Source of the DNA: Verrucomicrobiia bacterium
GTDB taxonomy: Bacteria; Verrucomicrobiota; Verrucomicrobiia; Limisphaerales; UBA8199
Direction of reading: 5' to 3'
NCBI GenBank assembly: GCA_035946615.1
Contig: DASYZB010000142.1
Coordinates: 1-54,521 of the forward strand
Length of the DNA stretch: 54,521 nucleotides
The first letter of the stretch is position 1. Every line of letters starts with the position of its first letter. Both the position numbers and the translations under genes were made by a program. Shown here one piece after another: positions 39,018-54,521 of the stretch. Below the pieces are notes generated by a model. That model was not told where the DNA came from and did not search any database. It worked only from the letters and a program-made list of their open reading frames with translations.

Positions 39018-40712
39018 ATGATTTCAGCAAGTCAATCTATTAAACTCGCTCGCAATGAGGGACTTAAGGAAAATAATCCGCTGCTTTGCGGGACAATCGC
39101 TCAAACATTGGCAGATTCTGCCACAGACCGTTTTTCGGAGGACGATTACGAGTTTCTGAAGTTTCATGGGATTTATCAGCAGGATGATCGGGACCAGCGG
39201 AAAATAGGCAAGCATTACATGCTGATGGTGCGCACGAAATTTCCTGGGGGTGTGCTGAGCGCTCCACAGTACGTGGCGTGCGACGAATTAACCGGCCAAT
39301 ACGGGAACAATACCATGCGGATAACGACCCGGCAGGACTTCCAATTCCATGGCATTCTCAAAGGGAATTTGCGCCAAAGCATGAAGCATTTGAACGAGGC
39401 GCTGGTAACGACGATTGCGGCCTGCGGCGATGTCGAGCGCAACGTGATGGCACCACCCACGCCTGCCACCAGTCCGCTGGTGGACCAAGTCCTGGCTGAG
39501 GCGCGAGCGCTTTCGGGCAAACTGGCGCCCAAGACGCCGGCCTATCACACAATATGGATTGAGGGCAAGGAATTGGACCTCACGACCGAAAGCAGCGCCG
39601 AGTTTGTTGACCCGCTCTACGGCAAAACGTATCTGCCGCGCAAGTTTAAGACCTGTTTTGCCATCCCACCGCTGAACGACGTGGATGTATTCACCAATGA
39701 CTTGGGCTACATAGTAATCGAAGAGCCAGGGCGGTTGGCCGGCTACAATCTCCTGGCAGGGGGCGGCTTGGGGATGTCCCACGGCAACGCGCAGACCTTC
39801 CCCCGCCTTGCGGATGTGGTGGGGTTTATCCGCCCTGAGCACCTGGAAGTCATGACCAAAGCGGTCATTACCATTCACCGCGACTTTGGAGACCGGACCA
39901 ATCGGAAACATGCCCGGCTGAAATATATCATCGAAGAGCGTGGAGTGGATTGGTTCCGTATTGAACTGGAGCAGCGAACGGGCATCAAGGTCGAACCCGC
40001 CCGGCCATTCCAGTTCACCAAACAAGGCGACTTGCTCGGTTGGAATCAGCAGACCAACGGCAACTTTTTCCTCGGGCTCTTCGTCGAGAATGGCCGCATC
40101 AAAGATTTCGACGGTTACCGCCTCAAGTCCGGTCTGCGACGAGTCATCGAACAGTTCAAGCCCGAGGTGCGCTTGACTCCGTCGCAAAACATTCTGCTGG
40201 TGAATGTGAAGCCGGAACAGCGCGCCGCAATTGAACAAACACTGGCCGAACATGGCGTTTCAGTGGCGAATCCATTCAGCCGCACGCGCCTGGCCTCGAT
40301 GGCCTGCCCCGCCTTGCCTACGTGCGGCCTGGCGCTGGCAGAATCCGAACGAGTCCTGCCCGGCATTCTGACCCAGATCGAGCGGCTCCAAGCGGAATTA
40401 AACATTCCCCAAGAGGAACTCATTGTCCGGATGACCGGCTGCCCAAACGGCTGCGCCCGGCCTTACACGGCTGAGATCGCCTTTGTCGGCAAAGGGCCCA
40501 ACAAATACCAGATTTATCTTGGCGGCAATGAGGCCAGCACCCGGCTCAACCGGGTCTATAAGGACTCCGTGAAGAGCGATGACCTCATCGCCGAAGTCCG
40601 AGCGGTGCTGGTCCGCTATCTTCAAGAGCGCCAGCCGGTCGAGCGGTTGGGTGATTTCTGCCGGCGTGTTATCTGGGCCGAACCGGCGCTGGCCGGCCAA
40701 CCGGCGCATTAA
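39018..40712 (+). CDS. Ferredoxin-dependent sulfite (or nitrite) reductase, siroheme protein
   Basis: Siroheme/[4Fe-4S] reductase of 564 residues that reduces sulfite to sulfide with six electrons. The C-terminal cluster ligands are visible: ACPALPTCGLA (C-x5-C) and MTGCPNGCARPYTAEIAFVG (C-x3-C), the last Cys bridging to siroheme. The N-terminal half contains RITTRQDFQFHGI, typical of the paired sulfite/nitrite reductase fold, and GGGLGMSHG. Sequence alone leaves a nitrite reductase possible, but the operon (cysH, cysD, cysNC downstream) makes sulfite the likely substrate. Electron donor: no flavoprotein subunit (CysJ) is present, so ferredoxin is probable. The start follows a candidate promoter, and cysH starts 23 bp after its stop. 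Confidence 0.92.
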   Translation: MISASQSIKLARNEGLKENNPLLCGTIAQTLADSATDRFSEDDYEFLKFHGIYQQDDRDQRKIGKHYMLMVRTKFPGGVLSAPQYVACDELTGQYGNNTMRITTRQDFQFHGILKGNLRQSMKHLNEALVTTIAACGDVERNVMAPPTPATSPLVDQVLAEARALSGKLAPKTPAYHTIWIEGKELDLTTESSAEFVDPLYGKTYLPRKFKTCFAIPPLNDVDVFTNDLGYIVIEEPGRLAGYNLLAGGGLGMSHGNAQTFPRLADVVGFIRPEHLEVMTKAVITIHRDFGDRTNRKHARLKYIIEERGVDWFRIELEQRTGIKVEPARPFQFTKQGDLLGWNQQTNGNFFLGLFVENGRIKDFDGYRLKSGLRRVIEQFKPEVRLTPSQNILLVNVKPEQRAAIEQTLAEHGVSVANPFSRTRLASMACPALPTCGLALAESERVLPGILTQIERLQAELNIPQEELIVRMTGCPNGCARPYTAEIAFVGKGPNKYQIYLGGNEASTRLNRVYKDSVKSDDLIAEVRAVLVRYLQERQPVERLGDFCRRVIWAEPALAGQPAH

Positions 40713-40735
40713 CCGCTTCAATTTACAGGACCATC

Positions 40736-41485
40736 TTGCAAAGCGCAGTCCAGAAACTTACGCCCGCGGAGGTCCGTTGGCTAAACGAGCAGTTCAATCA
40801 GCAACGGACCGAGCAAATCCTTGAATGGGGCTGGCGCCGATTCGGCAACCGGGCTGCCATCGGCACTAGTTTTCAAGGGGCCGGTCTGGTGATGATCCAT
40901 CTGGCGAAGAAGGATGGATTGCCTTTGCCTGTATTCACCCTGGATACGGGCCTGCTTTTTCCGGAAACGATTGCTTTGAAAAAACGGCTCGAAGACTTTT
41001 TCGGACTGACCATTGAATCGCTTGAACCCGACTTAACTGTTGCGGAACAGGCCGATATTAACGGGCCGGAATTATGGAAGCGCGACCCAGACCTGTGCTG
41101 CACAATTCGCAAGGTCCTGCCGCTGCGGGATAAGTTGTCCGAACTCGATTGCTGGATTACCGGCTTGCGCCGCCAGCAATCCGACACCCGCGCCGGCATT
41201 GGAATCATCGAGCTGTATGCCTTTGACGAGGCCTCAGGGCAGGACATCGTGAAACTCAATCCGATGGCCAATTGGACACGTGAGGCCGTTTGGGATTACC
41301 TGCGCGCCCATCAGATTCCCTACAACCCGTTGCACCTCCAGGGCTACGGTTCGATCGGATGCCAGCCTTGCACGCGCCGCGCCGCCAATGGCGAGAATGA
41401 ACGCGCTGGCCGCTGGACCGGGTTTAACAAAGTCGAGTGCGGCATCCACACCTTCATGCCCAAGAAGATCGATTTCCAGATTTGA
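40736..41485 (+). CDS. cysH: Phosphoadenylyl/adenylyl-sulfate reductase
   Basis: A 249-residue thioredoxin-dependent reductase that converts APS or PAPS to sulfite. Motifs: [17 protein letters not shown] (nucleotide-binding start), [47 protein letters not shown], and the catalytic ECGIHTFMP near the C-terminus. The cysteine pairs CC and CxxC are those of [4Fe-4S] APS-type reductases; PAPS-specific enzymes of E. coli type lack them. So the substrate may be APS, even though a CysC domain is present downstream. It lies 23 bp after the sulfite reductase and 2 bp before cysD. Confidence 0.95.
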
Positions 41486-41487
41486 CC

Positions 41488-42300
41488 ATGGATTATTTAT
41501 CAAAACTCGAAAACCAAAGCATTTACATCCTGCGGGAGGCTTTTAATAAGTTTGATAACCTGGCGATGCTCTGGAGCATCGGCAAAGACTCGACCGTGCT
41601 GCTGTGGCTGGCGCGCAAGGCCTTTCTGGGCCATGTGCCCTTCCCGCTCGTGCACGTCGATACGACCTATAAGATCGAGTCGATGATCCAGTATCGCGAC
41701 CAGTTGGTTAAGGATTGGAACCTGCAGTTGGTGGTGGGCAAGAACGAGGCCGTCCTCAAGAGCGGTGTCACTTACCCCAACGGCAAAGCCACGCGTGTCG
41801 AATGCTGCGGCACCCTCAAGAAAGACGCCCTCAAAGAGGTCCTGGACAAACACCACTTCACCGGGGTCATTGTGGGGGTGCGCCGCGATGAAGAACCGAC
41901 CCGGGCCAAAGAGCGCTACTTCAGCCCCCGCGACAAGAACATGGAATGGAATGTCGAAGACCAGCCCCCCGAGCTTTGGGACCAGTTCAAAACCGATTTT
42001 GATAAAGGAACCCATATCCGCATTCACCCGCTGTTGCATTGGACCGAGCTGAATGTCTGGGAGTACATCGAACGCGAGCAAATCCCGGTCATCCCCCTCT
42101 ATTTTGCGAATGCAAAGGGCGAACGCTACCGCAGTCTCGGGTGCGCCCCGTGCACGTTCCCGATCAAATCAAACGCCAGGACCGTGCGCGACATCATCGA
42201 AGAACTGCGCCATACCAAAACCCCGGAACGGGCTGGCCGCGCCCAGGATAAAGAGAGCGAAGACGCCTTCGAGAAACTGCGCCGCGACGGCTACATGTGA
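41488..42300 (+). CDS. cysD: Sulfate adenylyltransferase subunit 2
   Basis: CysD is the catalytic subunit of ATP sulfurylase, forming APS from sulfate and ATP with GTP hydrolysis by CysN. The 270-residue protein begins [19 protein letters not shown] and has the PP-loop [19 protein letters not shown]. It continues with [47 protein letters not shown], and ends RRDGYM, which is typical. The start at 41488 lies 2 bp after the cysH stop; an upstream in-frame start inside cysH is not homologous. It is 13 bp before cysNC. Confidence 0.97.
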
Positions 42301-42313
42301 GCGATAACTAAAA

Positions 42314-44215
42314 ATGATTTCTTCCAACGGCAGCGTTCCCAGCGAGCAGCTTAAGATCGTCATTGTCGGCCATGTGGACCATGGCAAATCGACCTTTGTT
42401 GGCCGGCTCTTTCACGACACCGGCTCGTTGCCCGACGGCAAGCTCGAACAACTCCAGAAAATCGCCGAGCGCCGCGGGGTCCCTTTCGAGTGGGCCAACC
42501 TGATGGATGCCCTGCAGTCTGAGCGCGACCAAAATATTACGATCGACACAGCCCAGATTTGGTTTCAAACACGCCGCCGCCAGTACGTCATCATCGATGC
42601 GCCCGGGCACAAGGAATTCCTGAAGAACATGGTCACCGGGGCGGCCAACGCCGAGGCGGCGCTGCTGCTCATCGACGCCCACGAAGGCGTGCAGGAGAAC
42701 TCGCGCCGGCACGGTTACCTGTTGAACCTGCTGGGCATCCGGCAGATTGCAGTGCTGGTCAACAAGATGGACCTGCAAGCCTACAGCCAGGCGCGGTTCA
42801 ACCAGATCGAGGCCGAGTATCGGGCCTGGCTGAAGACGGTGGGCGTCGAGCCCAAAGTTTTTATCCCAATCGCCGCCAGGCACGGAGACAACATCGCTAC
42901 GCGCAGCGCCAACACCCCCTGGTGGCGCGGCCCGACGGTGCTCGAGACCTTGGACGAGTTTCAGGTTGCCGAGTTGCCCAAACACCAGCCGCTGCGGCTG
43001 CCGATACAGGATGTGTATCGGTTCGATCACCGCCGCGTTCTGGCCGGGCGCATCGAGTCCGGCACAATCAAAGTCGGCGATCGGCTCGTATTCTCCCCAA
43101 CCAACAAAACCAGCGCAGTTAAAACCATCGAACGCTGGAATGCGCCAGCCAGCGACACCGCGTCGGCGGGCGAATCGATTGGAATCACCTTGGCCGAACA
43201 AATCTTCGTGGCGCGCGGGGCGATTGCGGCCCTCGAATCCGCGCCGCCCTTCGAGCTGTCGAGCTTCAAGGCGCGCCTGTTTTGGCTGGGCAAACAACCC
43301 TTCAAACCCGGCAAGGCTTACAAGCTCAAGCTGGCCACCCAGGAGGTTGATTGCCATATCGAATCGATAGAAAAAATCATCGACGCTTCCTCATTGGAAC
43401 CCGTTTCGCGCCAAGAGACGGATAGGTTTGTGGGCCGGCATGAAGTGGCCGAGTTGACGCTCCATACGAAAAAGCCGGTTGCCTTTGACATCCACTCCGA
43501 GATCGTTTCTACAGGCCGCTTTGTTATTGTCGATGGTTTCGACGTGGCGGGTGGCGGCATCATTGCCCCGGGCAATTACCCGCGCCGGACTCATGACTCG
43601 GCCAATAAGAGCAACAATATCTACTGGAGCCTGGGCAAGATAACCACGCGCCAGCGCGAACTGCGCAACGGCCATCGCGGCTGCGTCATCTGGCTGACTG
43701 GCCTGTCGAGTGCCGGCAAATCTACCATCGCCACCGAACTCGAACGCGAGCTGTTCGCGCTCGGGCGGCACGCCTATGTGCTGGATGGCGACAATATCCG
43801 CCATGGCCTCGGGGCGGACCTCGGTTTTTCCCCCAAAGACCGCGCCGAGAACATCCGGCGCATCGGCGAGGTGGCGAAACTATTTGCCGATGCCGGGGTG
43901 ATTTGCATCACTGCCTTTATTTCTCCATACCGGGCAGACCGCGACCTGGTCCGCAAGATTCTTCCCGAAGGCCGTTTTATCGAGGTCTTTGTCAATGCGC
44001 CGCTGGAAATTTGCGAGCAGCGCGACCCCAAAGGTCTCTATGCCAAGGCGCGCGCGAAAGAGATCAAGGAATTTACCGGCATCTCCGCCCCGTACGAGGC
44101 GCCGCTTACGCCCGAGCTCGAATTGCGCACCGACCAGTTGACAGTGGCCGAATCGGTGACACACATCCTCGATTACCTGCAGGTCCAGGACACCGAAACC
44201 GCCATTTCGATCTGA
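42314..44215 (+). CDS. cysNC: Bifunctional sulfate adenylyltransferase subunit 1 / APS kinase
   Basis: A 633-residue fusion. The N-terminal CysN part is a translation-factor-like GTPase: [22 protein letters not shown] (G1), DAPGHKEF (G3), NKMDL (G4), followed by the beta-barrel domains to about residue 440. The C-terminal part is CysC, APS kinase, with P-loop [13 protein letters not shown] (about 463), [16 protein letters not shown], and [22 protein letters not shown], ending with the PYEAPL... motif. Both halves look intact. The fusion would channel APS to PAPS, while cysH appears APS-type, a combination worth a check. Its stop is followed by a GC-rich stretch ending in TTTTTT (44220-44225) and a dispersed repeat, but no strong hairpin. 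Confidence 0.97.
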
Positions 44216-44349: not shown

Positions 44350-45525
44350 GTGAAAAGGCGCCTGTCTATCGGTCTAGGTCTCGTGGGAACCATAATCCTG
44401 GCTGGCCTTTTGGTGTCTGTCCCGCATTCCAGCCGCCCAACCTACCAGGGCAACACTGTAACCGAATGGGCGTTGCGCGCGAATTCGGGAGACCCACTCG
44501 CGACGCGCGCCCTGAAATCCATGGGTCAGCGTGCGGTCCCCGAGTTGCTCGGTCTATTGCAATATCACCGGTCTTTTTTAGGAACGAGACTGCGGTCTCT
44601 TACACCGAGCCTGGGGTCGCCATGGCGCGGTTTGGTTCCACGAAAGGTGCTCCAGCCTGATGCGTTCGTGTATCGGGAGGCCGGTGCGCATGGGCTTGGC
44701 ATCCTTGGCAGTCAGGCCAACGCTGCGGTTTATCCTCTGGCCAAGGCGTTGCGGGAAAAGGAAGGGCGCGTCCGCTGGGAGGCGGCTTCAGCCCTGGGTA
44801 GCATTGGCCAGGATTCGGTGCCTGCGCTCATCGAGGCTCTGAAAGCTCCCGATGTCATGGTGCGGCGCGCCGCGGCCTTTGCTTTAGGCCAAATCGGCCC
44901 AAGGGCTGCGCCTGCAGTGCCGGCTCTCATTGCACGGCTCCAGGACACAAACGAGCAGGTCGTGTCTTCCGCATCCCACAGTTTATCCACTATTGGTCTG
45001 CCCGCAATTCCAGCCCTAATGGAAGCGATCGAGCATGGGGATGCTCGCGCCCGCGAAGCTGGGGCTAGAGCATTTGATTCAGTTTACCCTTCTCTGATAG
45101 CGGCAGTGCCGGCGCTGTTGGACCAGGCAAACGCTTCATCAACCACTGCACGGAAGGAAGCCTTAGAAGAACTCGGCGCCGACCGTTTTGCCCGGAAGCC
45201 CGTTATTGAGACACTGGCCAGGGCTCTGGGTGATAAGTCTTTGGAAGTGCGTTCTGCCGCTGCCCTGGCCCTTGGGCGTATCGGTCGCCGGGCTGCCGAC
45301 GCCATACCCCAACTCCAAAAAGCAACATCGGACCCTGATGCCTCGGTTCGTTCCGCAGCTCGGCTCGCTTTACTCAAGATTCGGGGAGACGACATCATTG
45401 ACTGTGGCGATTCATTCAATCCTCGTGAAACTACTCGACGGAGAGGGATGGTGGGCGGCTTACGTAAGTCATTGATGGACTGGCGCACCCATCAGGAGTT
45501 GAACCTGAAACCTTCTGATCCGTAG
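44350..45525 (+). CDS. HEAT/PBS-lyase-repeat protein ending in tRNA-derived sequence
   Basis: A 391-codon frame from a GTG at 44350, with a signal-anchor start (MKRRLSIGLGLVGTIILAGLLVSV, first codon GTG). From about 110 to 335 it has HEAT-like repeats of about 30 residues (WEAASALGSIGQDSVPALIEAL, RRAAAFALGQIGPRAAPAVPAL, VRSAAALALGRIGRRAADAIPQL). Such repeats act in protein contacts. The last 15 residues, RTHQELNLKPSDP, are translated from a tRNA 3' fragment (45481-45526), which tells that the natural C-terminus was lost or changed by an integration event. The repeats themselves are uninterrupted. The stop is provided within the tRNA fragment. Confidence 0.85.
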   Translation: MKRRLSIGLGLVGTIILAGLLVSVPHSSRPTYQGNTVTEWALRANSGDPLATRALKSMGQRAVPELLGLLQYHRSFLGTRLRSLTPSLGSPWRGLVPRKVLQPDAFVYREAGAHGLGILGSQANAAVYPLAKALREKEGRVRWEAASALGSIGQDSVPALIEALKAPDVMVRRAAAFALGQIGPRAAPAVPALIARLQDTNEQVVSSASHSLSTIGLPAIPALMEAIEHGDARAREAGARAFDSVYPSLIAAVPALLDQANASSTTARKEALEELGADRFARKPVIETLARALGDKSLEVRSAAALALGRIGRRAADAIPQLQKATSDPDASVRSAARLALLKIRGDDIIDCGDSFNPRETTRRRGMVGGLRKSLMDWRTHQELNLKPSDP

Positions 45526-45526
45526 T
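45481..45526 (-). repeat. tRNA-Arg(ACG) 3' half, candidate attachment site copy A
   Basis: On the minus strand this 46-bp tract is the 3' half of a tRNA: anticodon loop CTACGGA (anticodon ACG, arginine), 3' anticodon stem, TTCAACT T loop with CAGG/CCTG stem, and an acceptor 3' strand ending in CCA. The 5' half (D arm, 5' acceptor) is not found next to it, so it is not a functional tRNA gene. It is identical over all 46 bases to 50003-50048. Integration by tyrosine recombinases into tRNA 3' ends leaves such duplicates. Confidence 0.85.
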
Positions 45527-45690
45527 CAAACATTGAAGCGATTTTTCGGGCAAGGTTGCGTGCTGCCAAAAGCTTATGAAAGTCAGCGGCGGGTATCGGC
45601 AGGTATCCGGTGCCGACCCCGCGTGTAAAATGTGTCCCACCCAAAACTCAGTCAAACGCAGTGAGAAAGCGAGGGTTGGGTCAACTCCGC

Positions 45691-46185
45691 TCAACTCCAC
45701 CGAGCCGGAAAATCCGCGTTACCGCCAGTCGCCTCCTTGAACTTGCTTCTCATCCTATGGGAGAACGAGGAGTCCATTGCGAGAGCCAGAAACTCTTCCT
45801 CAACCAGTTCGGCAGGCATAGCAGCCAGCGATTTAATGATGCCGCTCAGGTACTGTCGCGTAGTGTTGGAGCTTTTTACGCGTCGAAGCTCGGTGAACAG
45901 CAGACGGGCACAGGCCTCCGTTTGGACGTCGCGCAGCGCCTCCACGATTGTCAGGCGCCGCTCCCAGTTTTCGTCGCTGGCGGCCAACAAGCCCATAAGA
46001 AACACGCCGGCCTCTTTTCGACCGCTGCCATGCATCAGCCGCAGGATCGCCACGCCCGATTCAAACTTCCTTTGGTCACTCTCCACGGCTTGTTGCAAGA
46101 TTCCGTCAATGGGGAACTTGGCCGCGTCCAGAGAGCCTTCCTCGGTTATCCACGGCACGGCTCGATTTGAGCATTCGTCACTCAT
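45691..46185 (-). CDS. Hypothetical helical protein
   Basis: About 164 residues from ATG 46185 (MSDECSNRAVPWITEEGSLD); the open frame continues to 46344 but that part is low in coding character. Strongly helical by inspection, with alternating short helices such as FPIDGILQQAVESDQRKFESG, AILRLMH and YLSGIIKSLAAMPAELVEEE, compatible with HEAT-like packing. No known family. It is transcribed divergently from the gene at 46307 and lies within the segment bounded by the two tRNA fragments. Unknown function. Confidence 0.6.
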   Translation of the reverse strand: MSDECSNRAVPWITEEGSLDAAKFPIDGILQQAVESDQRKFESGVAILRLMHGSGRKEAGVFLMGLLAASDENWERRLTIVEALRDVQTEACARLLFTELRRVKSSNTTRQYLSGIIKSLAAMPAELVEEEFLALAMDSSFSHRMRSKFKEATGGNADFPARWS

Positions 46186-46306
46186 CGGTCGTATCGTGTC
46201 TGCGCGCGGAAGGCCGGTCAAGCGCCTTGGGTGGTAACCCGGCAGGGTGGCCAAGCCAACCACGATGTTGCTGGATAATCCACGTCCCTTCCACCAGGAT
46301 GGTTCC

Positions 46307-46642
46307 ATGAGCAAGCGGCCCGTGGGCAAGCGAAAATCGAGCAAAGTTAAGGATGTGTACCTGCGCCACCTGGGAAAAATTTGGCCAACAATCCTGCGGG
46401 CCTACAACGATTTCAAAGACATTAAGCCCATCATTGAATATCGCCTTCGCGAAAAGGTCGTCCTTGCCTATCCTGCCTTGCCTTACATCGCTGATTTGAC
46501 CAAACGAACAAGGGAGGAAACGCGCCAGGTTTACCGGGAGGCAGCAGAGAACAGAAGGTTCATGGTCTTCATCTCGGACAGCCGAGAGCGAGTTCTCCGG
46601 TCGTATGTCTTCGCTATAGAGGAACCGGCCGGGCGCATTTAA
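46307..46642 (+). CDS. Small hypothetical protein
   Basis: 111 residues from ATG 46307 (MSKRPVGKRKSSKVKDVYLRHL); the upstream in-frame extension to 46247 is unlikely. The N-terminus is basic, the middle has an aromatic helix (IWPTILRAYNDFKDIKPIIEY), and the rest is RLREKVVLAYPALPYI plus strand-rich RRFMVFISDSRERVLRSYVF. A nucleic-acid-binding role is conceivable from the basic N-terminus but is not supported by a motif. It is followed at some distance by 46879 and 47205 on the same strand inside the tRNA-bounded segment. Confidence 0.55.
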   Translation: MSKRPVGKRKSSKVKDVYLRHLGKIWPTILRAYNDFKDIKPIIEYRLREKVVLAYPALPYIADLTKRTREETRQVYREAAENRRFMVFISDSRERVLRSYVFAIEEPAGRI

Positions 46643-46878
46643 GCCTACAATCCAATGAAAAGCGAGACTCCGGTGAAGCGGGCGCAGCACGGATCCCCCT
46701 GGCCCGGCTGAGTCTTGCGGCCAACACACCTTTTGCTAACCTCGTGCTATGAGTGAATGCGAAGCTCATGCTGCCACCGTCGGCGAGGGATCGAAACATG
46801 TTTCGAATCGTCTTGGAAAAGCGCGAACGCTTCGCCGAAGTGGCAGGCGGGATAGAGAGATTAGCCGCTATTGATTGT

Positions 46879-47205
46879 ATGAAATCCTCGTTTGTCGGGC
46901 GATGGCGGATTGTGGAAATGGAGCAGTGGGAGCAGGAATTTGTGGATTTGGTAGCACCCGGCCACATTACTTTTGCGAGTGGTGGGCGGGGTCAATTTTC
47001 CTTTGGTGCAGTGGAGGCCAATTTGGATTGGAGGCAAGACCCCTCGGGCAAGCGCGTGAGTTTCTCTTTCGAGGGCTTTGATGAAGGCGACGAAGTTTCG
47101 GGCCGAGGGTGGGCGGAACCGGAAGGCGGAAGATTGACCGGGAGAATCGTTTTCCATCTTGGGGATGAGTCCGGCTTCGTGGCCCAGAGATCGCGGCGGA
47201 CTTAA
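46879..47205 (+). CDS. Small hypothetical protein, beta-rich
   Basis: 108 residues from ATG 46879 (MKSSFVGRWRIVEMEQWEQEF). The pattern is of alternating beta strands with many Trp and Phe (GHITFASGGRGQFSFGAVEANLD, RVSFSFEGFDEGDEVSGRGWAE), which resembles a small beta-barrel. An in-frame extension to 46753 adds a non-conserved segment with a separate tiny frame at 46748 that reads MSECEAHAATVGEG; neither is preferred. Its stop TAA overlaps the ATG of the next gene (TAATG), so the two are translationally coupled. No family recognised. Confidence 0.6.
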   Translation: MKSSFVGRWRIVEMEQWEQEFVDLVAPGHITFASGGRGQFSFGAVEANLDWRQDPSGKRVSFSFEGFDEGDEVSGRGWAEPEGGRLTGRIVFHLGDESGFVAQRSRRT

Positions 47206-48095
47206 TGGACGATATGCTCAAGGGAGGCAACCAGCGAGCGGGCAAAACCGATAAGCTGCTGACGAAAGTCCTCGGCCATCGTTTCACATTCGACGGCGGT
47301 CAAGCCGACCTGAAACTCTTGCGCTCCATCCACGCGGGAACGTACGCCAATAGGAAGCCGGGCGATCCGAGCTTCCACGCGTATGCCGCCGCCCTCAATA
47401 TGGCGAACGATTTCGCTTCGCAGGTTCTGGTTATTCTCGATCTGGTTCCGTTCAATAATCAGCTGGCCGACCTTCAAGACAAATACATGCCGAGCTATCC
47501 CCCGATGAGCCCGGTGACGTCAGCTTTCTTCGCCGGCTGGATGGTGCTCGATGCGCAAGATGGCTACTCCGGCGCGACTCTTGGCGAATTATTTGTCCAC
47601 TATATCCAGCACGCGGGTGAATACGAGTATGTCCAAAAGGCCATGGCCGCCTTGAACGATTCCTACTGCTCATTCTACGAGGTGATGGATGTCGGCGCAC
47701 CCGGACTCAAGCTATGGGACATCGCGGGCAAGCGGTAGCTTCGATGTTGGAACAGCAGCGGATATGCCGGTGGCAAAGGAGAAATCTGGTACGCCCGGCT
47801 GTTGCCGTCGCTTATTGAGTCCTCCAACCGGTTCGTGACCTTGAACACGCCCTATGTGTTCAGGAACAGCAGCCGGCACGTGTGGGAGAAATTCTTCGAG
47901 CGTCAATCCGTTTCGACGGCCGGCGATCATCGCTCACTGCGAAATTATCTGAAATTTGGCGACTGGCTCGGATACTGGCTCGAGTTCATTTTCCAGGCCT
48001 TTGTGGGTTATACCGGAAACATGATTTTGATAACGGGGGTTCCAGATGACCCCGCCTCGCTTCCACACCGCCATCCACAGCGCAAATTGTGGTAA
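47205..48095 (+). pseudogene. Hypothetical gene split by an in-frame stop
   Basis: The frame opens with ATG 47205 (overlapping the previous stop) and runs 177 codons to TAG at 47736-47738 (…LWDIAGKR stop). The same frame is open again for another 119 codons to 48095, with protein-like sequence such as GEIWYARLLPSLIESSNRFV, LNTPYVFRNSSRHVWEKFFE and GYWLEFIFQAFVGYTGN. A single nonsense change would explain the split, although two short genes or compensating shifts cannot be excluded. Restored length would be 296 residues. Family unknown. The 3' end is 5 bp from the end of the convergent ATPase gene. Confidence 0.6.
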
Positions 48096-48099
48096 TTAC

Positions 48100-49653
48100 T
48101 TAGGCAACGGGTCCCTTTTGGTCCAGCCACAGCAAAAGATTGGAAATCACGGCTCTCCCCGATAGGGTGATGCCCTTTTTCACGGAAGCTTTGGTCGGAT
48201 CGAGCATGTTCACCTCTCCGCTGGGGCTCACTGACGCAACAATCCAATGCCAGCGGAAACCGCGCCCTTCAGCGACCATTCTAGACCATTCGTTGCGGTT
48301 GAATCTGAGCGGCAACGGAGACCGCTTGACTTGGATTCCCAATTGCAGGGCGCCATGTGTCGCCAACAAATCGAAGGCGCCCCGAGATCCTTTGGACTGA
48401 TAGACCAGGTCGAATCCCATGGCCGAGAGCGCACCTGCTGCCGATTTTTCGGCCTCGTCGCCCACCACACTCATGGGCACGATGGTTCCGCCGGGGCGTC
48501 GCCAGCGCAGCCAGAGACCAAACGTTGGATCGGCGAGGCGGTAAAGCCCTTCCGCTGTTCGCTCAACCGCATCCTGCAGACGTTCCAGGTAAGTGACCGT
48601 CGGGCCGGTTGAAGCTCCAATGGTCCTGGAAATGGCCGTCAGGCTCGCCGGCCCCTCTGCCAAGGCGTCGAGGGTAGCGGCCAAAGAAGTCGAGCGTCCC
48701 ACCAGTTTTTGAAATTCGCTTTCGAAATAGAGGGCAAGGCGCCCGGTTCGTGAAAACAACAACTTTTGCAGTGAGGTCTTCAGGGAGGACCGGCTGGGAT
48801 GGCTTGGCGACTCGACCAACTCCTCACCCAGCATCTGAAGATAGAACGGATAGCCACCGATCGCTTTGACAGCCAGCTCGGCAACCTCGCTGGAAATGGG
48901 CTTTTCCGGACCGCTCTCCTGCTGCAATAGATCGACAGCGTCATCAGGGCGGAACGGCCCCAATTCCTGAAGCGCGAAGTGCTGGAAAAACGGTGACTGT
49001 TGGGATTGGACAAGCTTCAGCAGCATAGACCGCGCTGAACCCGAGATAAAATAGCTGACCCTCCTATGCTTCTGCCAACGGCTGCGCATGAACATGAAGG
49101 CGTTGAACTCCTTTCGTGCCCGCAGACCCTCCAACTCTTGGAACTCATCGAGCGCGATAACGAAGAATAGCCCCAAGTGGGCAGCCAGTTGCTCCGGCAA
49201 ATCAAGCCAGGCACCCGCGCGATGCGTATTGATCTCGCCCTCCACAAGCTCCAGAAGCTCGCTCCGGAGTGAGTCAGGCAAGCTCCCGAAGCGATCCGAC
49301 TTTTGAAGCAGCTTGCGATAAGCTGCAGGGTGGCCGCTCAATCTCTCGAGGGATTCGCCCAGTTCCCGCCCAACTGCGGCGTCCAGGACCTCCAAAGCCA
49401 AACGGCGGAAGATCGCCAATGAAGCAGGCCCTTGTTCCTGTACGTCAAGGGTAATGACCCGCAAGGTGTCCGTGCGCGCACGCCTGGCCGCCTCGAGCAC
49501 CAAGCTCGTTTTGCCGATCTTACGAGGTCCCAAGATGGCTATCCATCGTGGCTCGCCAGCCACCAGACGCTGCATGCTGCGCGATAAGGCTTCCAACTCG
49601 CTGGCTCGGTTGTGAAAGCCTTTTCCGACAACGGGCGTACTGGTTTGAAACAT
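48100..49653 (-). CDS. AAA-type ATPase with C-terminal restriction-nuclease-like domain
   Basis: About 517 residues from ATG 49653 (MFQTSTPVVGKGFHNRASEL); the in-frame start 49689 adds an odd leader. ATPase domain: Walker A in AILGPRKIGKTSL (about residue 42), Walker B in FFVIALDEFQEL (Asp169), sensor-like YFISGSARSML, and the GGYPFYLQMLGEEL helix-turn found in archaeal-type STAND ATPases (PF01637). A winged-helix segment follows (about 340-400). The last about 130 residues look like a PD-(D/E)XK nuclease: GFDLVYQSKGSRGAFDLLA then LGIQVKRS with Asp and QxK. Such ATPase-nuclease proteins occur in mobile and defence loci; the role here is inferred. It is in the segment bounded by the two tRNA fragments, with GTTGCA repeats just upstream. 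Confidence 0.82.
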   Translation of the reverse strand: MFQTSTPVVGKGFHNRASELEALSRSMQRLVAGEPRWIAILGPRKIGKTSLVLEAARRARTDTLRVITLDVQEQGPASLAIFRRLALEVLDAAVGRELGESLERLSGHPAAYRKLLQKSDRFGSLPDSLRSELLELVEGEINTHRAGAWLDLPEQLAAHLGLFFVIALDEFQELEGLRARKEFNAFMFMRSRWQKHRRVSYFISGSARSMLLKLVQSQQSPFFQHFALQELGPFRPDDAVDLLQQESGPEKPISSEVAELAVKAIGGYPFYLQMLGEELVESPSHPSRSSLKTSLQKLLFSRTGRLALYFESEFQKLVGRSTSLAATLDALAEGPASLTAISRTIGASTGPTVTYLERLQDAVERTAEGLYRLADPTFGLWLRWRRPGGTIVPMSVVGDEAEKSAAGALSAMGFDLVYQSKGSRGAFDLLATHGALQLGIQVKRSPLPLRFNRNEWSRMVAEGRGFRWHWIVASVSPSGEVNMLDPTKASVKKGITLSGRAVISNLLLWLDQKGPVA

Positions 49654-49683
49654 GCATCTCTCTCTAGCAGAACAGGAGCTTGC

Positions 49684-49719
49684 TTGCAAGCTTGCAACGT
49701 CTCAACTCTGCAACGTTGC
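49684..49719. repeat. GTTGCA-type repeats on the left of attachment copy B
   Basis: TTGCAAG (49684-49690), TTGCAAC (49692-49698) and the perfect palindrome GCAACGTTGC (49710-49719) lie within 36 bp in front of the ATPase gene. Related GTTGCA motifs occur on the other side of the tRNA fragment (50081-50160). They could be integrase arm-type sites or operators of the ATPase gene. Confidence 0.5.
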
Positions 49720-50002
49720 GAGTTTGCGGGCACGGCTACTATCCCACCGGGGCGGCCAGGGACGCAGGTTCCGGGCTGGCAGTCCCGCCATAAGGGAACG
49801 AACAGTTTGTCCTTTCCTTTCGGAGCCGAAAACGTCTCAAGCGCCAGGAATTCAAACCGTCTGATATTGCTTGTGTATAATCGGTCCCACCTTGGGGGTC
49901 AGCGCCGTTTTTTCCGCGAGGCCGACCACCGGATTCCGGTTATTTGATCGCGACAAAACCCTTGATTTACCGAGTGATTTGAAGGGTGAAGTTTTTTTTG
50001 GG

Positions 50003-50048
50003 TGGCGCACCCATCAGGAGTTGAACCTGAAACCTTCTGATCCGTAGT
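50003..50048 (-). repeat. tRNA-Arg(ACG) 3' half, candidate attachment site copy B
   Basis: Identical over all 46 bases to 45481-45526, with different flanks on both sides. As in copy A, only the 3' half of the tRNA is present; the sequence where the D arm should lie shows no tRNA. It sits 237 bp in front of the tyrosine integrase gene, as an attachment site should. The rest of 49720-50285 has no gene; short translations of this tract are artefacts. Confidence 0.87.
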
Positions 50049-50080
50049 TCGGAAAACTAGGGTTTTGGCCAGTCGTAACA

Positions 50081-50197
50081 AGTTGCATTTAGTTGCAAAT
50101 CCTCCACGTTTTCAAGGCTTTACACACCTGAGGGCTAAACTCGACGCAACTCGTTGCAACCGCCCAAAACCGAAAAATTGGCCAAGAATTGGCCAAG
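50081..50197. repeat. Direct repeats between attachment copy B and the integrase
   Basis: AGTTGCATTT and AGTTGCAAAT follow each other at 50081 and 50091; CGCAACTCGTTGC at 50145-50157 is an inverted variant, and GTTGCAA is at 50153-50159. TTGGCCAAG occurs at 50178-50186 and 50189-50197 (11-bp period, core TTGGCCAA palindromic). Position next to attachment site and integrase suggests arm-type integrase or excisionase sites; this is inference. Confidence 0.55.
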
Positions 50198-50285
50198 CAA
50201 CCCCGGCTTTTGAAGCTACGTGGGCTTTGCGCATCTTGTGTGGCTGATACACCGGAGCGCTCTGGTTTTCTGATGGCATTGGGGC

Positions 50286-51769
50286 ATGAGCGCCGGAAAT
50301 ATCGCTGACGATTCCAACGGTGCGGCTGCCGCAGCAACCGAAACCGCAACGAAGCGGTTTTACCCGAAGACTCATGCCAATTATTGGAAATCTCGGCTGG
50401 AACATCGCACCTATTCGCGCGATGGGAAAGCGTTCGAGGTTGCCGAATGGTCAGTCCGCATCCACTTCAAAGGCATCCGAAAGAGTTTCGATTTGGAAAC
50501 GGCGAACAAGGAGGAGGCGGCAGTAAAAGCGCGCGATATTTATCTGTCCATCCTGGCAAAAGGCTGGTCCGCCACAGTCAATGAACTCGCTCCGCAGTTG
50601 GTGCCATTAGCCGAAATTGGCAACGATTGCGCGACCGTTGGCGGGTTCCTCGCCGAAGTGGAAAGAACGGCGAATCTCAAACCGAAGACGTTCCGCTATT
50701 ACGGTTCATGCTTGCGACAGTTCGCGGCTTACGCCCAAGGAGTGAAATCAGACGCTTCGCGGTTCGACTACTGGAAAGGTGGGGCCACGGCATGGCGGCA
50801 GCAGATTGACGCAATTCCCCTTTCAGCGCTGACGCCCGCCGCTGTTGCCGACTATAAGATGTTACGCCTCAAACGGGCGGGGAGCGATCCGCGACGGAAG
50901 CTCGAAGTAAACCGCTCCTTCAACAGTTGGCTGCGGTGCACGAAAAGTCTTTTCAGCGAAGCGATTATTTGCAAACCGAACTTCCGCGTAAAAGTTCCCA
51001 AATTCAAAGTACCCGACGGCCAGCGGGGGGAACGAGAGGTTTACTGGTTTGAGACGGTGAAATTTGAGCGCCCAGGCTCGATGAAGTTCCAGGCGCCAGC
51101 CGGTGTCACGTACGAGGGGCTTGTAACGAAAGCGCGCCATGAGTTGCGCGCGCACAGTCCCGAATCGTACAAGTTGTTCCTCCTGTGCCTTTGTGCCGGT
51201 CTTCGCCGAGGGGAAGCTGATGTTTGCCTGTTTGCCTGTGGACGCAATTGAACGCCGATGACAACTCGATTAGAATCGAAGCCAACAAGTATATCGAGCC
51301 CAAGCACGGTTCAGGCGGCACTGTCTATGTTGACCCGTCATTGATGAAAGAACTGCTCAGCTTCAAAGCGCCGGAGCAAGATGGCTTCGTAATAGATTCT
51401 CCGTTGGAATGGAAGGAGACGACGTATCGCCGCTATCGTTGTGAACCGCATTGGCGGACGCTGATCGAGTGGTTGGAGAGCAACGGCATTGATGCGAAGA
51501 AGAAAGTTCACGAATTGCGGAAACTCTTTGGCGACGCCATCGTCAAGCGAAATGGAATCTTTGCCGGTAGCGCGCAACTCCGGCACTCAACTATTCAAAT
51601 GACGGCGAGTCATTACACTGATCCGCGTCAACGCGCGGCTCTGCCAGTCGGCAATTTGTTTTCGGATGAAGGTACGAGAATTGTGCCTGACCACCCCTCC
51701 GAAGGACAGGTTCCCGCGCAGACACTGAGATCAAACAACCGCAAGACTGGGGTCAAAAATCGGGTTTAA
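50286..51769 (+). pseudogene. Tyrosine recombinase (integrase), frameshifted
   Basis: The first frame (from ATG 50286) gives an N-terminal arm/SAM-like region, a core-binding domain (FLAEVERTANLKPKTFRYYG) and the catalytic domain up to the first Arg motif LCAGLRRGEA, then stops at 51251. The second frame continues from about 51239 as TQLNADDNSIRIEANKYIEP and carries the rest of the active site: HELRK, AQLRHS and the tyrosine in MTASHYTDP, ending 51769. The break coincides with a perfect tandem duplication of TTTGCCTG; removing one copy restores an uninterrupted 491-residue integrase. So the enzyme was recently inactivated, or slips in both directions. It lies next to a tRNA-derived attachment copy, as expected for its function. 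Confidence 0.9.
51223..51238. repeat. 8-bp tandem duplication in the integrase gene
   Basis: TTTGCCTG occurs twice in direct contact (51223-51230 and 51231-51238). Deleting one copy makes RRGEADVCLWTQLNADD read in one frame. This identifies the exact event that broke the gene. Confidence 0.92.
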
Positions 51770-52179
51770 TTCAGTCCGAGGGACAGTCGTTGCCGAATTT
51801 GCTCCAGGCATGGCGAGGGTCGGAATCGAACGAGGAACCTTTACCGTTCCGATTGCAACTCACTCAAATTCAAGCACTAGGATACATTGATTTTACGAGG
51901 GTTCAAGCACTTTTCGCGATCGTTCGTCCACCGCCTCGCCATTGCTCGCCTATTGCCCTCCCAGCGCTCGCCAGGTGAAGATTTAGGTGAAGAATTGGGC
52001 GAAGCATATCTCCATCGTAAATCGCGCAATAGGCAATGTTGCCTGGAGTTACTTTCTTGCCCCGAGCCTAAATTGGGCAGTTGGTCGGTGGGGTGGTTGT
52101 GGTGGGTCAGTGACGTCCGTCCTGCAAGCATATCCGACCTCAGGTCCGTGGCCTTGGACGTACGAATTAGGAATTCGCC
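51770..52179. other. 410-bp interval after the integrase with a tRNA-like tract
   Basis: No gene is supported. On the minus strand 51811-51831 reads like a tRNA T arm and acceptor end (GTTCGATTCCGACCCTCGCCA), next to GGAAC...GTTCC able to form a 5-bp stem with a 7-base loop; however U33 is missing and the T stem has mismatches, so this is at most a relic. The homology of the following sigma factor begins only around 52186. The rest holds short frames without family resemblance. Confidence 0.5.
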
Positions 52180-52548
52180 ATGCACAGCCGCGGATGGCTC
52201 CTACGGATCGTGCGGAACGTATTTTACGATTGGCTAAAACAGAACCGCGGCGAGGAAACCAGCGAACCGTTCGACGAAGAAGTGCATGGTGTCATGGATG
52301 AAACTCGAGGGCCCGACGGGCGGCTGCTGCTGGAGAAGGCGGACCATGAGCTGCTGCACAAAGCCATTGCCAGCCTGCCGCTGGAGTTTCGAGAAGTCCT
52401 CGTACTCCGCGAACTCGAAGGTTTTTCCTACAATGAAATCTCCCAGCTCGCGAATATACCGCTGGGCACGGTGATGTCTCGGTTGGCCCGCGCGCGCGAG
52501 CGCCTCCGCACGCAACTGATTGGCTTCATCCAAGAGGAGGGTAAATGA
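52180..52548 (+). CDS. ECF sigma factor lacking its N-terminal half of region 2
   Basis: Extracytoplasmic-function RNA polymerase sigma factor. The part present begins GWLLRIVRNVFYDWLKQNR, the end of region 2 (2.4), followed by a linker and a complete region 4: IASLPLEFREVLVLRELEGF, SYNEISQLANIPLGTVMSRLARARERL. The first about 60 residues of a normal ECF factor (regions 2.1-2.3, needed to bind core RNA polymerase and melt DNA) are absent; the frame upstream is closed by a TAG a few codons before the ATG. It lies just after the island and is probably truncated and inactive, though it is uninterrupted. Its ATGA stop overlaps the anti-sigma gene start, as in intact sigma/anti-sigma pairs. Confidence 0.8.
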   Translation: MHSRGWLLRIVRNVFYDWLKQNRGEETSEPFDEEVHGVMDETRGPDGRLLLEKADHELLHKAIASLPLEFREVLVLRELEGFSYNEISQLANIPLGTVMSRLARARERLRTQLIGFIQEEGK

Positions 52549-53333
52549 GCTGCGAAGACACAAAAAATCAGCTCCATGCCTATCTCGACGCTGAACTGGA
52601 CTCAGTGCGGCGCGTGGAGTTCGAAGAGCACCTCAAGGGCTGCCCCGCTTGTTCGCGCGCGCATCAGGAGTATCAGTCTCTGCGGGCGGCAATCACCAGC
52701 CCATTGCTCTATTTCGATGCGCCCCGCGGCCTAGAACGTAAAGTGCGCTCAGCGGTCAGAAAAGCTGCGCGTGCCGAGACATCTCGTCCCGCTTGGCGCT
52801 GGACTTGGAATTGGAAACTTCCAGTGTGGCTTGCTCCATTCGCCGCGGCGGCTTTGGTTACGGTTGTTACTTTGCATTTGTGGACTCAACACTGGACGGA
52901 GGATCAAAGAGTGCAGGAGATCCTCTCCGCCCACGTCCGTTCACTCATGGTCAACCATCTCTTCGATGTGGCCTCCGCAGACCCGCACACCGTCAAACCC
53001 TGGTTCACCGGCAAACTGAATTATTGACCACCCGTAATCGACCCGACGGCCGAGGGCTTTCCGTTAATCGGCGGGCGATTGGATTACGTGGCCGATTCCC
53101 CCACGGCGGCCGTCGTATATCAGCGCCGGAAACATTACATCAATCTGTTCATCTCGCCCGCCAACCAAACCGTAACGACCAAAGAGGATCTCCTGACACG
53201 GCATGGTTACAATATGCTCCACTGGCTGCAGGGCGGGATGGAGTATTGGGCTGTGTCCGATGTCAACAAGGGCGACTTGCAACAATTCGTTTTGTTAGTG
53301 AGGAAGGAAGCGTCGGCAGGGATTGTCAGGTGA
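52545..53333 (+). pseudogene. Anti-sigma factor (zinc-finger type) with in-frame nonsense codon
   Basis: The N-terminus (MSCEDTKNQLHAYLDAELD) has the zf-HC2 anti-sigma motif with HLKGCPACSRAHQEY (H-x3-C-x2-C). A membrane segment follows (about 88-107, WLAPFAAAALVTVVTLHLW), so the protein would be anchored with its zinc domain in the cytoplasm. The frame stops at TGA 53025-53027 after GKLNY, but the same frame continues open to 53333 with convincing sequence (PPVIDPTAEGFPLIGGRLDYV, HYINLFISP, YNMLHWLQGGMEYWAVSD), giving about 262 residues in total, the usual length. A TCA-to-TGA change would explain the break. Overlaps the sigma gene by ATGA. A shortened protein might still bind sigma. Confidence 0.82.
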
Positions 53334-53442
53334 AAGATTGCTTCACGCCGTTCTGAAAATGCAGTTCGGACGCGTCTAGGGGCTCACAGGATTTTCCGGT
53401 TCTTTGAATCGGCTCCCCTATGAAATGCACACACGAATACAT

Positions 53443-53634
53443 ATGAGCGTAGAATTCAATTCCATCCAACCTCGTGAAACGCAGGTCAGACTCGATAGCG
53501 GATGCAAGGACCTGGCCCACGTCGAAACCTTCAACGTCAGCGCCGAAGCCCAAGCCGCACTAGACCGCGAATACATCAAATTCCTCGAAGCCCAAAACGC
53601 GTACCTCAAAAACCTTCTCTCGATTGATTATTGA
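53443..53634 (+). CDS. Small hypothetical protein
   Basis: 63 residues from ATG 53443 (MSVEFNSIQPRETQVRLDSG; the in-frame ATG at 53404 may be the start). Contains a charged middle and a helix (AEAQAALDREYIKFLEAQNAYLKNLLS). No family recognised. It may be a fragment of a larger lost gene or a spurious frame, since it lies among pseudogenes. Confidence 0.35.
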   Translation: MSVEFNSIQPRETQVRLDSGCKDLAHVETFNVSAEAQAALDREYIKFLEAQNAYLKNLLSIDY

Positions 53635-53635
53635 G

Positions 53636-54401
53636 GCGGGCGCTAACGTGTTCCTGGCGGCCGAAAAGGCGCTCCAGGAATTACCGCTGACCCGGAGTTG
53701 AGCCAAGACGACAGTTACCTTCGAGCCGGTCGGCGTTGCCAGCCTGATCACTCCTTGGAACGCGAACTCGTTTTTTCTTTCTGCCAAGCTTGCATCCACC
53801 CTCGCCGCCGGTTGTACGGCGGTCATTAAGCCCAGTGAGCTGAGCGCAATGCAAACGCAAACGTGGCTCGAATGCATTCGCGAGGCAGTGAAGCTGGAAC
53901 CAGCTGTCAGCCTATCGGGCTGGTTCCAGCTTCACAACTGCACGGGTTAGAAGGTACCGGCTTTGAAACGTTGTGACCGGGCGCGGTGATGTGGTCGGGG
54001 CAGAGCTTGTGCGCAATCCTGATGTGGTGAAGATCTCGTTTACGGGCTCGGTTTCCCTTGGCAAGTCGATCATGCGCGACGGAGCCACGACGATGAAGCG
54101 CGTCACGCTCGAACTTGGTGGAAAGTCGCCCAATATCCTGCTCGACGACGCCGACCTCACAAAGGCTATCCCTAATGCGCTCGTCATCGGATTTCTCAAC
54201 AGTGGCCAAGCATGCGACGCAGGGGCCCGGCTCCTCGTGCCGAAGAACCGGCTCGACGAAGTCAAGCGAGCAATCTTGGATGCCATGCCCGCCTTTCCAG
54301 TCGGCGACCCGGCCGACCGAAAGACTGCCATCGGACCTATGGTCACACAGAAGCAGTACGAGCGAGTGCAATCCTATATCCGGTTTCTACGGGGATCATA
54401 G
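53636..54401 (+). pseudogene. Aldehyde dehydrogenase, broken and truncated
   Basis: Clear ALDH superfamily sequence in pieces. Piece 1 (53636 on) reads AGANVFLAAEKALQELPLT, has an in-frame TGA (53699-53701), then FEPVGVASLITPWNANSFF and AAGCTAVIKPSELSAMQTQ, ending at a 17-bp inverted duplication (53888-53935). Piece 2 is in another frame from about 53970: RGDVVGAELVRNPDVVKISFTG, MKRVTLELGGKSPNILLDD (catalytic Glu region) and NSGQACDAGARLLVP (catalytic Cys). It then stops at RFLRGS where a transposase end begins. The N-terminal third is missing. Cofactor-binding and catalytic residues remain, so loss is recent. Substrate unknown. Confidence 0.88.
53888..53935. repeat. Perfect 17-bp inverted repeat in the ALDH pseudogene
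   Basis: GTGAAGCTGGAACCAGC (53888-53904) and GCTGGTTCCAGCTTCAC (53919-53935) are exact reverse complements with a 14-base loop. The first arm is part of the ALDH coding sequence (EAVKLEP); the second appears to be a templated reverse copy that replaced or was added to the original sequence and shifted the frame. Confidence 0.93.
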
Positions 54402-54521
54402 TGGGTAGAGATTGAGCTTTCCGCAGAAGAACAGGATACGAATCCGGTAGTTGTGAAAGTTGCGAAAGCCTCGGGCAGCGGACTTGAGACTCTGGATTTT
54501 CGAGTTCAGCCCCTCGGTTAC
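54396..54521 (-). mobile_element. ISL3-family-like transposase, C-terminal end, cut by window edge
   Basis: The last 126 bases, read on the minus strand, give 41 codons and TGA: VTEGLNSKIQSLKSAARGF then RNFHNYRIRILFFCGK. This matches the conserved C-terminal TEGxNxKIxxxKxxAxGFRxFxNYRxRILFxxGK of IS204/IS1001/ISL3 DDE transposases. The gene continues past 54521. Its end coincides with the abrupt end of ALDH homology, so the insertion sequence probably truncated that gene. Terminal inverted repeats cannot be judged here. Confidence 0.75.

Follow-up and report, generated by a model that had tools for sequence, protein, structure and literature searches.

Gene Content of the Locus

The stretch of DNA analysed here, referred to as the window (54,521 nt, from a Verrucomicrobiia bacterium), contains two identical 46-bp sequences that enclose a 4.5-kb segment, termed element B (Table 1). 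Read on the minus strand, both copies give ACTACGGATCAGAAGGTTTCAGGTTCAACTCCTGATGGGTGCGCCA, which is tRNA-Arg(ACG) sequence that starts at the 5' edge of its anticodon loop and ends with CCA. To the right of copy 2 lies the visible part of a second element, element C, with an integrase gene, ECF sigma and anti-sigma type genes, an aldehyde dehydrogenase remnant, and repeated sequence at the contig end. A HEAT-repeat gene is located left of copy 1. Other genes of the window include sulfate assimilation genes at 39018-44215 (sulfite/nitrite reductase, two PAPS-reductase-domain proteins, and a CysN/CysC-like fusion) and, at 32168-38632, a gene for a 2154-aa protein with HYDIN/CFAP65-like Ig domains and PKD domains.

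Table 1. Features of the tRNA-Arg(ACG) integration site in the window.
Feature	Position	Strand	Basis or remark
ATCAATGACTTACG, possible P' remnant of a third, older element	45463..45476	-	motif enriched just past CCA at such sites
att1, displaced tRNA-Arg(ACG) 3' half	45481..45526	-	exact 46-bp match to intact C72 tRNA
Element B, integrase-less, between two tRNA halves	45527..50002		single copy in genome
Possible arm site of element B, CGGCGGGTAT/CGGCAGGTAT	45587..45608		weak
Possible arm site of element B, TCAACTCCGC/TCAACTCCAC	45679..45701		weak
Unassigned ORF of element B	45691..46344	-	no family match
Unassigned ORF of element B	46247..46642	+	no family match
Unassigned ORF of element B	46753..47205	+	no family match
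Frameshifted gene of element B, pieces 47205-47738 and 47802-48095	47205..48095	+	intact ~290-aa homologues elsewhere in the order
AAA/ATPase_2 family ATPase gene of element B	48100..49689	-	Pfam PF01637
att2, displaced tRNA-Arg(ACG) 3' half, B/C junction	50003..50048	-	exact 46-bp match to intact C72 tRNA
Visible part of element C	50049..54521
Putative P arm of element C, arm-type tandem site AATTGGCCAAGAATTGGCCAAG	50176..50197	+	kept in five relatives; 26 nt identical beside C72 tRNA
Tyrosine integrase pseudogene of element C, two frames	50286..51769	+	homology, PHROGs, conserved residues
Tandem 8-bp duplication TGTTTGCC x2, shifts int frame	51221..51236	+	alignment with intact G156 gene

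Displaced tRNA Halves and the Intact tRNA-Arg(ACG) Gene

A preliminary description of this DNA had reported the two copies as identical, and both their positions and their identity proved exact. It had further noted that they run from the anticodon loop to CCA and have no 5' half. In agreement, ARAGORN detected no tRNA in the window, and the complete tRNA-Arg(ACG) gene, predicted to lie outside it, was located as a single copy on another contig (G000:C72:65926-66002, 77 nt), with the 46-bp core starting at its nucleotide 32. Besides the window copies, the 46 bp match only inside this gene (≤3 mismatches, 5.6-Mb genome, 161 contigs); dinucleotide shuffles gave an expectation of 0 matches. The genome thus holds two 3' fragments only, both in the window, so neither of the two results named beforehand as speaking against an integration site was found, namely a full tRNA adjoining one of the copies or a wide occurrence of the 46 bp apart from tRNA genes.

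The sequence just upstream of the core differs among the three copies (gtctg, gtttg, and ccga); therefore, the window copies are not whole genes with minor damage. Since both are 3' halves on the minus strand, the missing 5' half is expected to the right. The intact tRNA and the 3' fragments occupy separate contigs (C72 and the window); the flanking arms described below would fit fragments lying downstream of the intact gene in a common orientation. A displaced 3' fragment with an exact counterpart inside an intact tRNA of its own genome, as found here, is one mark of an island targeted to a tRNA by a tyrosine recombinase.

Element B

No second copy of the element B DNA was found in the genome. 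The segment had been described as holding only orphan genes and an ATPase. The ATPase was confirmed and also matched weakly the PADLOC defence candidate PDC-S27, and the small ORFs matched nothing in Pfam, PHROGs, NCBIfam, or PADLOC; the orphan status did not extend to all other genes, as 47205-48095 has intact homologues elsewhere in the order. The claim that the segment lacks an integrase of its own held: searches of Pfam, PHROGs, and NCBIfam detected no integrase or transfer family inside it, and a broken integrase gene lies directly outside.

Right of copy 1 are two imperfect 10-bp tandem pairs, of a kind present in ~6% of background 250-nt segments, and 1.5% of random pairs score as well as the best P/P' match between the ends of element B. 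One of the tandem repeats (45679-45701), searched in 293 genomes of the order, occurred in the window alone and in none of the other 292. The tandem pairs and the end match suggest arm sites of a different integrase, and the ends of element B do not resemble those of element C. Because these arm sites are weak, the case for element B as a separate mobile unit is carried mainly by its two tRNA halves. With attL and attR at its ends (the tRNA halves at 45481 and 50003) and with integration and transfer genes absent, element B has the composition of a CIME (cis-mobilizable element), a category that assumes the former presence of such genes and mobilisation in cis by an adjacent element. Having no integrase, element B looks inactive now.

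Sequence Left of Copy 1

Motifs of the ATCAATGACTTACG type (≤1 mismatch) were present within 50 nt past CCA in 10 of 123 flanks of tRNAs or tRNA halves, against 9 of 20,000 random 50-mers, and they accompany P' arm repeats at several intact tRNAs. The motif left of copy 1 is most simply read as a short stretch of P' arm left behind by an older element, a reading that we regard as somewhat favoured and no more, because the motif was drawn partly from the same sites. Similarity of the HEAT-repeat gene to most relatives stops near 45390, and its reading frame ends within copy 1. Homologues of this gene within the family mostly show 30-36% identity, and synteny is therefore of little help; the genomes searched for an empty site all came from other genera.

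The Integrase and the Two Proposed Ends of Element C

The integrase gene starts 237 nt right of copy 2 and is split into two pieces (50286-51251 and 51224-51769), both of which weakly matched PHROGs phrog_1 (integrase). Intact homologues in the same order have open frames of ~490-514 codons, among them a 492-codon frame in the relative G156, and share as much as 87% identity with the first piece. Across 20 aligned homologues, the invariant residues include Arg-307, Lys-337, His-406, Arg-409, His-431, and Tyr-441, which we take to be the catalytic positions expected of a tyrosine recombinase. Element C therefore contains a tyrosine integrase gene, if only as a pseudogene, whereas element B does not. 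Because int is frameshifted, element C looks inactive now.

Between copy 2 and int, AATTGGCCAAGAATTGGCCAAG forms a tandem pair of 11-bp units, and five relatives have it almost without change. The 26 nt identical to this arm are found 68 nt past the CCA of the C72 tRNA, on the other side of the core, which corresponds to the opposite arm (P'); the score of this exact P/P' match was reached by 0 of ~400 random pairs of 250-nt segments. Exact TTGGCCAA-NNN-TTGGCCAA sites occur three times in the genome, all at tRNA 3' halves: at window copy 2, at the C72 tRNA-Arg, and at a displaced tRNA-Lys(CTT) half on contig C132. The sequences past CCA on C72 and C132 and in two relatives, G203 and G156, align as one P' arm. 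The pattern had been attributed to a tyrosine recombinase that integrates in a tRNA gene, and this attribution gains support from the integrase gene and putative arm-type site adjoining copy 2 and from the matching opposite arm adjoining the intact tRNA.

We infer that element C spans from C72 to window position 50049. The genome has five further occurrences of the sequence at the end of the window (54380-54521), three of them at contig ends (C93, C48, and C124) and the others inside C32 and C100. It probably represents one end of an insertion sequence at which the assembly broke off. As the window ends in repeated sequence, a join other than to C72 is possible, and the contig end provides no link between the two contigs. 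The visible part of element C yielded no genes for conjugation or mobilisation. The aldehyde dehydrogenase remnants (~53720-54400) include a perfect 17-bp inverted repeat with a 14-nt loop (53888-53935). Beside the intact tRNA on C72 is a 594-aa frame (L004:8970-10754) with a short radical-SAM start, an alpha/beta hydrolase, and a DUF3471 end, which appears to have arisen within element C by the fusion of gene pieces.

A Second tRNA Site in the Same Genome

On C132, at ~93.5-94.7 kb (L245:223-1431), an intact tRNA-Lys(CTT) and a displaced 3' half of tRNA-Lys flank an integrase-less segment of 1.1 kb that holds a single gene (230 aa). The displaced half is followed by the TTGGCCAA P' arm, and TGACAAA-like repeats are positioned near both segment ends. 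By its arrangement, the tRNA-Lys(CTT) locus is a putative second stacked site.

The Integrase Family in Relatives

A scan of GTDB genomes yielded 79 relatives of the element C integrase, nearly all from Verrucomicrobiota; 67 were examined, and 63 had sufficient upstream sequence. A tRNA 3' half was present 127-380 nt upstream of int, on the opposite strand, in 43 of these 63 loci, compared with 3 of 937 other segments of the same loci, and none of these had an intact tRNA at that position upstream of int. These counts indicate that int adjoins the displaced half in this Int family. The halves derive from several tRNAs (Arg ACG, Arg TCG, and those with CAT, CTT, GAA, and GTA anticodons, among others) and mostly begin in the anticodon loop. 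In the papers searched on integrases and Verrucomicrobia, this family is not described.

An independent instance of the layout at both ends came from G203, where contig C92 carries an intact tRNA-Arg(TCG) with the P' arm and contig C12 a displaced half, the P arm, and an intact Int. One contig of G156 combines an intact tRNA-Arg(ACG) with a 3' half located 15.8 kb downstream of it and followed by the TTGGCCAA P' arm; this tandem array is a stack like that proposed for the window. The same layout in relatives, together with this comparable stack, strengthens the earlier claim of at least two integrations, or tandem elements, in one target.

The intact tRNA-Arg(ACG) of G156 (L116, C17:51860) and the 3' half downstream of it (L125, C17:67661) have a common T stem, ATAGG/CCTAT; the displaced half beside Int (L133, C26:56690) has the T stem TCAGG/CCTGA, and integration may have replaced the 3' half of the G156 tRNA with a variant. 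In three elements (L169, L172, and L176), int is closely followed by a complete tRNA-Met(CAT) gene on its own strand; in two of them, the displaced half upstream of int also comes from a CAT tRNA. These genes are perhaps element-borne tRNAs.

Discussion

Given the integrase, the arm sites, and the family layout beside copy 2, the 4.5-kb segment is best read as an older, integrase-less element that was pushed away by an Int-bearing element entering the same tRNA. We consider it very likely that integrative elements have accumulated in tandem at this locus, in the anticodon loop of the only tRNA-Arg(ACG) gene, with element B arriving first and element C second. In the proposed history, integration of element B would have pushed the resident 3' half to 45481. 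Element C would then have entered the regenerated tRNA by means of its tyrosine integrase and the TTGGCCAA arm sites on both sides of attP, pushing the B-borne 3' half to 50003 and leaving the intact tRNA at the far end of element C, on C72. Recombination by the integrase would take place in the anticodon loop, with the anticodon-stem dyad presumably serving as core sites; the 3' half brought by the element would be joined to the host 5' half, restoring the tRNA and displacing the resident half together with element B. We infer the order of these events and the excision and integration activities behind them, and element B would either have had its own integrase once or have been moved in trans. 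The anticodon loop with its stem has been stated to correspond to the canonical 7-bp overlap and core organisation (PMC8371274).

It is possible, though on the unlikely side, that element B was never autonomous but a small satellite that had att sites of its own, lacked an integrase, and relied on that of another element for movement in trans. The lack of any integrase trace in element B and the 1.1-kb integrase-less segment at tRNA-Lys(CTT) would fit such a satellite, but the broken gene at 47205-48095 fits decay, and the neighbouring Int is unlikely to have moved element B, since the ends of B are unlike those of C. An improbable alternative is that B and C form one composite element with an internal tRNA half that arrived in a single integration, as only one integrase gene is seen and transfer of accreted composites has been described (PMC5704250). 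Against this, the Int-family layout puts an element end at the half beside int, which makes 50003 an end of C; a joint later arrival of B and C is still compatible with this layout. An artefact, in which the tRNA pieces stem from tandem duplication or the contigs were misjoined at the 46-bp repeat, is very improbable even for a 161-contig draft genome with the repeat identical in three places, as the flanks of the copies diverge at once on both sides and the conserved P arm-int unit beside a tRNA half recurs in dozens of independent assemblies.

The favoured succession of B and C resembles arrays known from other systems. In the Islander data, attP is anticodon-centred in 2083 of 3919 islands, and 125 tandem arrays contain two or more islands (PMC4383910). 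As in the window, the tRNA fragments of tandem islands are displaced to one side in the same orientation; a tandem call in Islander, however, needs an integrase gene and a fragment for each member (PMC4383910), whereas here element B has no integrase and that of element C is broken. Arrays of ICEs and IMEs have been explained by integration, decay to a CIME, and accretion of a new element (PMC5704250). Elements B and C match this model in that an integrase-less element with both att ends lies beside an integrase-bearing element and shares one att with it at the tRNA 3' end; CIME accretion involves an ICE or IME (PMC5704250), whereas no conjugation or mobilisation genes were detected in what is visible of C. 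By their description alone, the tycheposons of Prochlorococcus (PMC10872708) can be likened to these elements in having a tRNA at the border and a tyrosine recombinase.

The arrangement itself is well known; here, the repeat pair has been resolved into a delimited, stacked integration site, and the integrase, its likely arm sites, and the intact tRNA target have been identified. Two points are less ordinary: throughout the family, int tends to stand next to the displaced half, and the genome contains a second integrase-less segment, at tRNA-Lys. A more speculative and rather doubtful extension is that the Verrucomicrobiota Int family, acting in the anticodon loops of many isoacceptors with int beside the displaced half, coexists with small integrase-less elements that share its tRNA sites and are moved in trans (4.5 kb at tRNA-Arg and 1.1 kb at tRNA-Lys), which would constitute a satellite system. 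The combination of a tRNA 3' half, a TTGGCCAA arm pair, and int provides a recipe to find and delimit the elements of this Verrucomicrobiota integrase family.
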